DNA of 39,041 nt from a bacterium (GTDB taxonomy: Bacteria; Patescibacteriota; Minisyncoccia; Sungbacterales; HO2-52-23): positions 1-39,041 of the forward strand of contig JAUYPW010000011.1 of assembly GCA_030697525.1 (NCBI GenBank), given 5' to 3'. Made by a program: the position numbers and the translations under genes. This document shows positions 36,279 to 38,894 of the stretch, piece by piece. Numbering within the stretch: the stretch's first letter is position 1; every line of letters begins with the position of its first letter. The notes beneath the pieces were generated by a model. The model was not told the origin of the DNA. It searched no databases and worked only from the letters and a program-made list of their open reading frames with translations.

Positions 36279-37184
36279 CTATTTAGCAAATATCTTTTTT
36301 GAAATTAGGTAACCCTTGCAATGCTTCAAAACCCCCAAATAAGAAACTATGTTTATATTATTTGCTCGTCTTAACAACCTTTTCTTTGTCCTCGTCCGCA
36401 AAACTCTGTGAGTTGGCATAACCACATAACCGAGAAAATCTATGCCCTGGCAATACTTGCGGATAATAATTTTATCCGGATGCGGGGTTAGTTTTAAGTT
36501 ATCAGCCAAAAAATTATTTATTTTATTTACTGTTTCCATTAAATGCCCGACAGTATAACCCAAAATAATAAAATCATCACAGTAGCGAATATAATATCTT
36601 TCTTTTAAGCCATGCTTAATAAATTGATCTAGCTCGTTAAGATAAATGTTGGCAAATAACTGGCTGGTCACATTGCCCAAAGGTAACCCTTTGTTAAAAC
36701 TTTTTATTATTTTCTCAATCAACCAGACCGCATTACCATCTTTTATTTTACTCGAAATAAGCTTAATCAGAGTTTGATGGTCTACCGAATCAAAAAACTT
36801 TCTGATGTCGCACTTTAAGACAAAGATATTTCTCGTATTATTGTAGCTCAATTTTCCGCAGAATGTTTCTAAACGATTCACGGCTCGGTGAGTGCCTTTG
36901 TCTATTCGGCAGGAGTAAGAATCAAATATAAAGTTTTTATCAAATACATGGTAAAGAACCCTGAAAACAGCGTGATGCACCAACCTGTCGCGGACAGTGG
37001 CCCTATGAATATGTCTCAATTTGGGATCAGTCACATAAAAAGGCGTGTAAAAGCCATGTTGATAGGTTTTAGTCCTCAATTCGTGGTGGAGTTGAAACAG
37101 ATTGTTTCCCAAGTTAAACTCAAACTCTTGAACATCCAGCCGTTTTCTTTTGCCTTTTTTGAATTCTCGCCAGGCCAAGAACAA
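36279..37184 (-). CDS. DGR-type reverse transcriptase (5' end uncertain; homologous-looking frame extends upstream to about 37249)
   Basis: 'FVLKCDIRKFFDSVDH', 'GLPLGNVTSQLFANIYLNELDQFI', 'YYIRYCDDFIIL' (YxDD box), 'LGYVVMPTHRVLRTRTKKRLLRR'. Adjacent to TR, VR and an Avd-like gene. Confidence 0.93.
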   Translation of the reverse strand: MFLAWREFKKGKRKRLDVQEFEFNLGNNLFQLHHELRTKTYQHGFYTPFYVTDPKLRHIHRATVRDRLVHHAVFRVLYHVFDKNFIFDSYSCRIDKGTHRAVNRLETFCGKLSYNNTRNIFVLKCDIRKFFDSVDHQTLIKLISSKIKDGNAVWLIEKIIKSFNKGLPLGNVTSQLFANIYLNELDQFIKHGLKERYYIRYCDDFIILGYTVGHLMETVNKINNFLADNLKLTPHPDKIIIRKYCQGIDFLGYVVMPTHRVLRTRTKKRLLRRANNINIVSYLGVLKHCKGYLISKKIFAK

Positions 37185-37239
37185 GTTTTCTAAAGAAATA
37201 ACCTCATCAAAAATATTATGGAAGATTTTCCCATTAAAG

Positions 37240-37249
37240 CCCCCCCCCC
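37240..37249 (-). repeat. Poly-G10 homopolymer (poly-C on +) at the 5' end of the RT frame
   Basis: TTAAAGCCCCCCCCCCTACGG on the + strand: ten consecutive C. Confidence 0.9.
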
Positions 37250-37267
37250 TACGGAGTTAATGTAAGT

Positions 37268-37603
37268 TTGGTGCATAAGATAAGTGAATTTTACAAACAG
37301 GTTTATTCTTTATCCGGCAAAATAGACAAAAGAGATAAATTCGGGATTTGGCTGAAAATAGAAAATTCATGTCTAGAAACTTTACGTTTAATAATCAAAG
37401 CTTCTTTTACCAACAAATTGGGCAAATTGCCATTATTGGATTCGGCTAGAACAGAAATTGAAGTGCTTAAAAGATTGCTGACCATAGCCCACGAGCTCAA
37501 GATTATCCAGACCAACTATTATTTACAACTGGAATCCGATTTGCAGGAAATCTCTAAAATGACTAACGGTTGGATAAGATATTTAACACAAAAGGAGCAT
37601 TAG
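37268..37603 (+). CDS. Avd-like four-helix-bundle accessory protein of the DGR
   Basis: 'ISEFYKQVYSLSGKIDKRDKFGIWLKIENSCLETLRLIIKASFTNKLGKLPLLDSARTEIEVLKRLLTIAHELKIIQTNYYLQLESDLQEISKMTNGWIRYL' matches the bacterial Avd / 23S-IVP-like pattern. TTG or GTG start. Confidence 0.85.
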   Translation: MVHKISEFYKQVYSLSGKIDKRDKFGIWLKIENSCLETLRLIIKASFTNKLGKLPLLDSARTEIEVLKRLLTIAHELKIIQTNYYLQLESDLQEISKMTNGWIRYLTQKEH

Positions 37604-37613
37604 CTCCTTTTGT
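37588..37613. terminator. Perfect 11-bp stem-loop at the avd 3' end and TR 3' flank
   Basis: ACAAAAGGAGC-ATTA-GCTCCTTTTGT; overlaps the avd stop codon and lies 11 bp from the sense-strand 3' end of TR. Confidence 0.7.
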
Positions 37614-37624
37614 TGTGGAAACTT

Positions 37625-37738
37625 CTGACGGGAACGGAGGTTGCCGTTGGAGTTGTCAGGGTTGTACCAGTTGACCTTGAACTTGTCCCTGTTCCAGTTG
37701 GCGTTCGGCACATTGCCGTCCTGATTGCGAGAACCCGT
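37625..37738 (-). repeat. DGR template repeat (TR), 114 bp
   Basis: Gap-free 114-bp alignment to VR 38057-38170 with 20 mismatches, all at TR adenines on the minus strand. Would encode GSRNQDGNVPNANWNRDKFKVNWYNPDNSNGNLRSRQ (AAC-rich). Confidence 0.95.
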
Positions 37739-38044: not shown

Positions 38045-38776
38045 TCAGGAAACTGCCTGACGGGAACGGAGGCCGCCGCCGGAGCCGCCAGGGTCGTACC
38101 AGTCGACCCCGAACTTGCCCCTGCGCCAGCCGGCGCACGGCACATCGCCGTCCTGATCGCGAGAACCCGTGCAGAGGGTGATATTATCTATGTCCGGGTG
38201 CTGGCCGGTCTCGTAAAAGTAGACGCCTTCATGAACCAGGCGTTCCAGCAAGGTTTCGGTGGTGAGACCCTCGGCCCTGATTTGGTTAGCCGACTTGTTT
38301 TTGTGCTCCTCGTCGGCCTCACGCCGATTGCGCACCCGAATGAAGTAATTCTGGACGGGTTCACGCTCGTTGAGACCCTGGGTAGCCGCGTCCAGATCGT
38401 CGATGTAACGCCAGCAGGGAAAGTGCTTCTCCAAAGCCCCGAGCATCTGGTTGGGCGTGAGGCCTTGGGGGATGCCGAGAACACGGGTAAAATCTCTCTC
38501 TGGTTCCGGAACTCTGGCACCCGAGAAATCAACTTCCAAACCGCAAAAATCGTGATAGAACTTCTGGAAAAAGACCATGGAATCAATGACAACTGGATCA
38601 ATGACAACTGGCGGGAAAATACCGACAATCTGCTCGGCCTTGCCCGACTTGGTGTTGGCCACTTCGGCGGCCATCTCGGGGGAGAATCCTTTCCTGCCCA
38701 GAGTGACCAGCATCTCGTGGACCTGACCCGCAGAAAACTCCGCGGGCTTGTAAATGCGGCTCGTGATGGTTTCCAT
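38045..38776 (-). CDS. DGR target protein with C-terminal C-type-lectin-like variable region
   Basis: Start ATG 38776 with GGAGGTGTGTG upstream; C-terminus 'VYFYETGQHPDIDNITLCTGSRDQDGDVPCAGWRRGKFGVDWYDPGGSGGGLRSRQAVS' contains the VR. Confidence 0.92.
   Translation of the reverse strand: METITSRIYKPAEFSAGQVHEMLVTLGRKGFSPEMAAEVANTKSGKAEQIVGIFPPVVIDPVVIDSMVFFQKFYHDFCGLEVDFSGARVPEPERDFTRVLGIPQGLTPNQMLGALEKHFPCWRYIDDLDAATQGLNEREPVQNYFIRVRNRREADEEHKNKSANQIRAEGLTTETLLERLVHEGVYFYETGQHPDIDNITLCTGSRDQDGDVPCAGWRRGKFGVDWYDPGGSGGGLRSRQAVS
38057..38170 (-). repeat. DGR variable repeat (VR), 114 bp
   Basis: Pairs with TR 37625-37738; 20 adenine-specific substitutions (18 A-to-G, 1 A-to-C, 1 A-to-T in sense orientation). 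Confidence 0.95.
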
Positions 38777-38894
38777 CACACACCTCCATAAAATAAGGTT
38801 TCAAGGGACTTTTATGACTCTATTTGAGCTTATTTATAAGTAAAGCATATGGATTATACCCTGTCAATGGTGGTGTAATTTTCATACATAAAAA

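Follow-up and report, generated by a model that had tools for sequence, protein, structure and literature searches.

A run of ten guanines at the head of the reverse transcriptase (RT) gene of a diversity-generating retroelement (DGR) from a Sungbacterales genome was interpreted, on the basis of comparative sequence analysis, as a contingency locus, i.e., a putative phase switch of the DGR, with a probability of about 0.83. The tract is located where the coding 5' ends of RT and of the accessory gene avd, encoded on opposite strands, overlap. It is likely, although with somewhat less confidence, that a single slippery repeat in this antisense overlap co-switches both hypermutation proteins, and that lineages of the Candidate Phyla Radiation (CPR) thereby control one hypermutable site by another, a second-order, mostly-off and bet-hedged form of evolvability.

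Results

Components of the DGR

The analyzed window is the entire 39,041-nt contig JAUYPW010000011.1, contig C27 of its own genome, which is assembled into 36 contigs with a total length of 746 kb. It contains a genuine DGR, in which an RT, a bAvd protein, a template repeat (TR) and a variable repeat (VR) are found together. The RT frame (36279..37256, minus strand) was assigned by its translation and by Pfam RVT_1 (E=7.9e-19), with the core starting at approximately 37232, and it is conserved with more than 500 CPR relatives. The avd frame (37241..37603, plus strand) encodes a bAvd-like four-helix accessory protein matching Pfam PF22296 with 56.9 bits at a cut-off of 40, while NCBIfam NF033474 gave E=4.7e-15, which is under the cut-off of that model. 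This gene lies between the TR and RT, and is divergent from RT in a head-to-head orientation.

The TR (37625..37738, minus strand, 114 nt) forms a direct repeat of 82% identity with the VR (38057..38170, minus strand), which occupies the 3' end of the target gene (38045..38779, minus strand), and thus the C-terminal end of its 244-aa product. No Pfam or NCBIfam match was obtained for this target. Over 114 positions, the TR and the VR show 20 mismatches, all of them at adenines in the TR. The locus therefore combines an RT of the DGR family, an adenine-specific TR/VR pair, Avd and a target with a 3' VR, which are the features expected of a DGR. The strong divergence of the VR from the TR, in a locus whose switch is assembled as off, fits past activity. 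Among the TR-to-VR changes at 38057-38170, 18 of 20 are A to G, which is a strong bias. In addition, the TR lies on the RT strand, so a transcript running from TR to RT would cross avd antisense (37268-37738), and RNA-level interference between this transcript and avd is possible.

The G10 tract and the start of RT

The tract, a proposed slipped-strand switch, occupies 37240..37249 on the minus strand (C10 on the plus strand) within the head-to-head overlap of RT and avd, where the minus strand reads GTA-G10-CTTTAATGGGAAAATC. An earlier sequence-only reading had described an RT frame that stays open upstream of the predicted TTG start, a stop preceding it and an off-frame ATG at 37276, and all of these features were found as described. 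From 37256 onward, directly downstream of a TAA stop at 37259-37257, the RT frame stays open (LRRGGGFNGKIFHNIFDEVISLENLFLAW). The ATG at 37274..37276 (minus strand), which is the proposed RT start, lies one frame off RT as assembled and reads MHQTYINSVGGGALMGKSS before a stop; it enters the RT frame only with 8 or 11 G. As that reading had calculated, addition of one G or removal of two fuses this ATG to RT, giving the head MHQTYINSVGGG(G)FNGKIFHN.

No ATG, GTG or TTG start is present between the tract and the conserved RT core. Two residues upstream of the TTG at 37184, N16 and I12, are invariant and nearly invariant, respectively, across relatives. A start at this TTG would cut off the invariant N-terminal motif and was rejected as an artefact of the ORF caller; comparison of N-termini, which the sequence-only reading had proposed, revealed no examined relative that backs it. 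We also considered a local alternative, in which RT would start from the ATG at GGGAAAATC through a change in the A-run, or through a -1 slip on GGGAAAA. It was set aside because the RT starts of relatives are either an ATG just before the block or lie across the tract, and because the required shift varies. A G10 run by itself is not very improbable in the window, as 9 of 100 shuffles contain one; the non-randomness of the tract is in its position and conservation.

The shared overlap with avd

The proposed start of avd is the ATG at 37218..37220 (plus strand; MEDFPIKAPPPYGVNVSLVHKISEFYK in the in-frame phase). The avd gene does not begin beyond the tract; from this codon its frame traverses the tract as PPP, and the head of Avd would read MEDFPIKA-PPP-YGVNVSLVHKISEFYK at a tract length of 11 bases, or the same with one proline fewer at 8 bases. 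The 5' coding ends of the two genes thus overlap in antisense over 59 bp (37218..37276), with the tract in the middle. With 8, 11, ... G, RT from the ATG at 37276 on the minus strand and Avd from the ATG at 37218 on the plus strand are both in frame, whereas with the assembled 10 G both ATG-started frames are broken.

The two starts are related in a reciprocal manner, each ATG being the reverse complement of a CAT (His) codon in the opposite gene: the RT start lies opposite a His codon of avd, and the avd start opposite the RT His codon in 'IFHN'. This geometry was observed in 50 of 53 unambiguous dual loci in each direction. In the window, avd contains two non-ATG start codons between the tract and helix 1 (TTG at 37268 and GTG at 37271). 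Such GTG or TTG codons occur at this place in 59 of 109 out-of-frame loci, and an ATG in 8; the GTG and TTG codons could provide leaky expression or a shortened Avd.

Conservation of the repeat in related loci

A search for RT in genomes of the class gave matches in 171 of 384 genomes. We gathered related loci from whole genomes (158), named genome contigs (80) and viral contigs (80), and removal of duplicates left 279 loci that include the 5' end of RT. In the first set, 147 of 149 loci have avd and RT in divergent orientation, as do all 60 loci of the second. The named relatives belong to Wildermuth-, Moran-, Falkow-, Yanofsky-, Levy-, Davies-, Curtiss-, Doudna- and Peregrinibacteria, a spread which indicates that the avd/RT arrangement spans the CPR. 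Approximately 200 related CPR DGR loci share a common plan, and most of them carry a non-triplet repeat at the matching spot of avd; the tract is therefore conserved in sister genomes, the comparison suggested by the sequence-only reading.

The distribution of repeats was analyzed in 202 loci. The avd head, defined as the sequence that separates RT from the avd domain (16.3 kb in total), harbors 138 mononucleotide runs with a length of at least 8 bases. It also holds dinucleotide (22), tetranucleotide (4) and pentanucleotide (1) repeats, while tri- and hexanucleotide repeats were not found in it. Comparable repeats are nearly absent elsewhere in the two genes, with 2 mononucleotide runs in the avd domain (60.4 kb) and 3 in the RT core (115 kb). 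The repeat units at the avd head are diverse, including C7-14, (CT)n, CA, AG, GA and a CAGGA pentamer, so the element is conserved as a repeat and not as a sequence. The pentanucleotide repeat was observed in a Daviesbacteria DGR (L204), where (CAGGA)9 in the avd head reads SGQDRTGQDRTGQDRTG.

The repeat type switches repeatedly along an RT tree built for 192 loci, although the counts are approximate because three loci scored as 'none' (L041, L042 and L158) carry C/G runs. CA, AG, CAGGA and C repeats occur together in a single five-row branch whose clade otherwise lacks repeats. In a large clade without repeats, Avd begins directly before helix 1 (MNEFDIPIFKK). Across the repeat-free loci, an in-frame, ATG-started Avd is present in 51 of 52.

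Frame states and coupling of RT to Avd

Usually, exactly one phase of the repeat gives an Avd started by ATG. In-frame copies number 29 among the 138 unambiguous repeat loci; another 58 require one additional unit and 51 require two, and both in-frame and out-of-frame copies are found in different genomes. The in-frame share (21%) is lower than the one third expected for a free phase (p=0.002, a value that is only a guide, since related loci are non-independent). The sample of repeat loci is therefore not a neutral mixture, and the deficit of in-frame copies may reflect a favored off state.

The phase of RT was compared between two groups of loci. In all 55 loci where RT has no ATG, GTG or TTG beyond the tract, its upstream ATG shares the Avd-on phase, versus 9 of 74 controls in which an ATG of RT itself follows the tract (Fisher 2e-27). 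In most loci with a downstream RT start, the tract leaves the RT frame intact. The comparison of the two groups indicates that Avd is the general target, and that RT is a second target coupled to Avd in a subset of loci that includes the window locus. The best reading is the phase-variable switch that was proposed earlier for the mutagenesis system. That proposal was incomplete, having overlooked avd on the other strand: its choice of RT as the target applies to this subset, whereas Avd is the most widely conserved target.

The cleanest close pair of loci, L008 and L015, are 92% identical over 1,041 nt and differ by repeat length, (GA)6 being in frame and (GA)8 out of frame, with no other length change adjoining the repeat; other pairs are more diverged. 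Length variants within one species were not found in the genus-level searches or in additional scans of viral contigs. The properties of a contingency locus observed here are thus a non-triplet repeat at a coding 5' end, a single length class giving an ATG-started frame, and a length difference between close relatives with conserved flanks.

Genomic context

By pattern search, only two G/C runs of at least 9 bases were found in the 746-kb genome, and these are located at the heads of its two DGRs. The second DGR (L001, C34:295-306) carries G12 at the RT/avd head and is out of frame as assembled; its phase is coupled as in the window locus, and one TTG after the tract places it in an intermediate class. 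In 17 DGR-bearing genomes, approximately 27 of 44 G/C runs of at least 9 bases are located at DGR heads, and three genomes without a DGR match in an earlier search contain no such runs. In related genomes, G tracts of 9-10 bases were also observed where large ORFs resembling secreted or surface proteins begin, or immediately before them (L330, G184:C8:31207; L336, G239:C9:16799; L323, G137:C32:25033; L338, G028:C4:10306), which are candidates for further phase-variable genes.

Loss of mismatch repair raises slippage rates. MutS_V (PF00488) has no match in the genome studied, an absence that is not absolute given its completeness of about 93%, and it was detected in 11 of 14 control genomes. 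The lack of a MutS match is fitting for high slippage.

Discussion

Proposed mechanism

We propose that strand slippage during replication would alter the tract length by single bases, and that any change other than a multiple of three would shift the 5' coding end in or out of frame. In the window locus, one tract would set the frames of the antisense avd and RT genes simultaneously, with both on at 8, 11, ... G, and cells in the off phase would produce little or no full-length Avd and RT. The TR-templated mutagenic retrohoming into the VR of the target would then stop, until rare slippage restored activity in a few cells. Avd was described as essential for cDNA synthesis and retrohoming (PMC6642488, PMC10053308), so an out-of-frame avd, here accompanied by an out-of-frame RT, should silence diversification. 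Under this mechanism the tract length would change within a population, the out-of-frame state would abolish activity, and the resulting heterogeneity of DGR activity would presumably be the selected benefit.

Alternative explanations

The window belongs to a draft, metagenome-type assembly and homopolymers of ten bases are error-prone, and the true tract might be in frame with both genes on. Such a sequencing or assembly error is nevertheless improbable, since 10 of 16 short C7-8 tracts and 14 of 17 dinucleotide repeats are likewise out of frame, and neither wrong phase predominates. Error also leaves unexplained why most related loci keep a non-triplet repeat at that spot, and it cannot account for the cross-locus pattern. 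Programmed ribosomal frameshifting or transcriptional slippage, which would supply a constant in-frame fraction from DNA of fixed length, is an explanation to which we attach similarly little weight. It would suit the ability of G/C runs to make RNA polymerase slip and the out-of-frame state of most assembled copies, but the needed shift has no fixed direction across loci, dinucleotide and pentamer repeats stand in for the homopolymer, and about a fifth of the copies are already in frame. A fixed programmed frameshift in particular was rejected on the basis of the equal +1 and +2 classes.

The location between divergent gene starts may also suggest a regulatory DNA or RNA element, such as a promoter spacer, a leader or a purine tract for ribosome binding, that does not switch the frame. 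On the RT strand, G runs and GA runs alike are rich in purines, and some of the remaining long G tracts of these genomes are positioned a short distance upstream of an ORF. However, the repeat units on the RT strand are not all purine-only (TG/GT for the CA repeats, CT for the AG repeats), one phase places the repeat inside an open, ATG-started avd frame, and the invariable coupling of the RT and Avd phases in the 55 loci would be left without a reason; tri- and hexanucleotide repeats would serve spacing, yet they are absent. We therefore regard this explanation as rather remote. Decay of the DGR heads into pseudogenes, with the tract as a frameshift scar, would agree with the out-of-frame majority, but it is hardly credible given that RT and avd have intact bodies, conserved across the class, that the TR/VR differences all fall at adenines, a signature of an active DGR, and that the frameshifts are confined to the repeat. 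The phase switch set by slippage is the reading that we retain.

Comparison with known systems

The window locus resembles the DGR of Bordetella phage BPP-1 (mtd-avd-TR-brt) in its RT, its bAvd-family protein and its adenine-specific TR/VR pair. The BPP-1 genes are codirectional and we know of no repeat switch in that system, whereas here avd is antisense to and head-to-head with RT, and the 5' ends of both genes share a slippery tract. Toggling of the frame by a non-triplet repeat near the start codon is characteristic of the poly-G/C genes of Campylobacter, Neisseria and Haemophilus and of phase-variable mod methylases. Those loci switch surface structures or methylases, in contrast to the targeted mutator and the two antisense frames on one tract described here. 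In Haemophilus, a single TA repeat between the divergent genes hifA and hifB controls both; it works by promoter spacing, and not through two overlapping coding frames.

The studied loci are very probably members of the Patescibacteria-restricted DGR clade 2 (Roux et al. 2021, PMC8144416), which they resemble in being cell-encoded DGRs of CPR genomes; the main text of that work contains no mention of Avd, frameshift or antisense. No earlier report of such a switch was found among titles and abstracts on DGRs combined with phase variation or homopolymers, a coverage outside of which the CPR DGR survey of Paul et al. 2017 falls, and no literature joining Avd with homopolymers or Patescibacteria was found. 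The novelty of the switch is accordingly provisional.

Implications

DGRs are common in uncultured CPR bacteria. To our knowledge, the regulation of DGR activity is largely unknown, especially in these organisms. A repeat switch on Avd, and here on RT as well, would provide an on/off state of hypermutation that is readable from the sequence and can be scored in existing metagenome reads. If the interpretation is true, many avd genes and some RT genes of CPR DGRs are mis-annotated or missed, because their starts lie across a shifted tract and are concealed in an antisense overlap, and these bacteria would practice bet-hedging of mutation itself.
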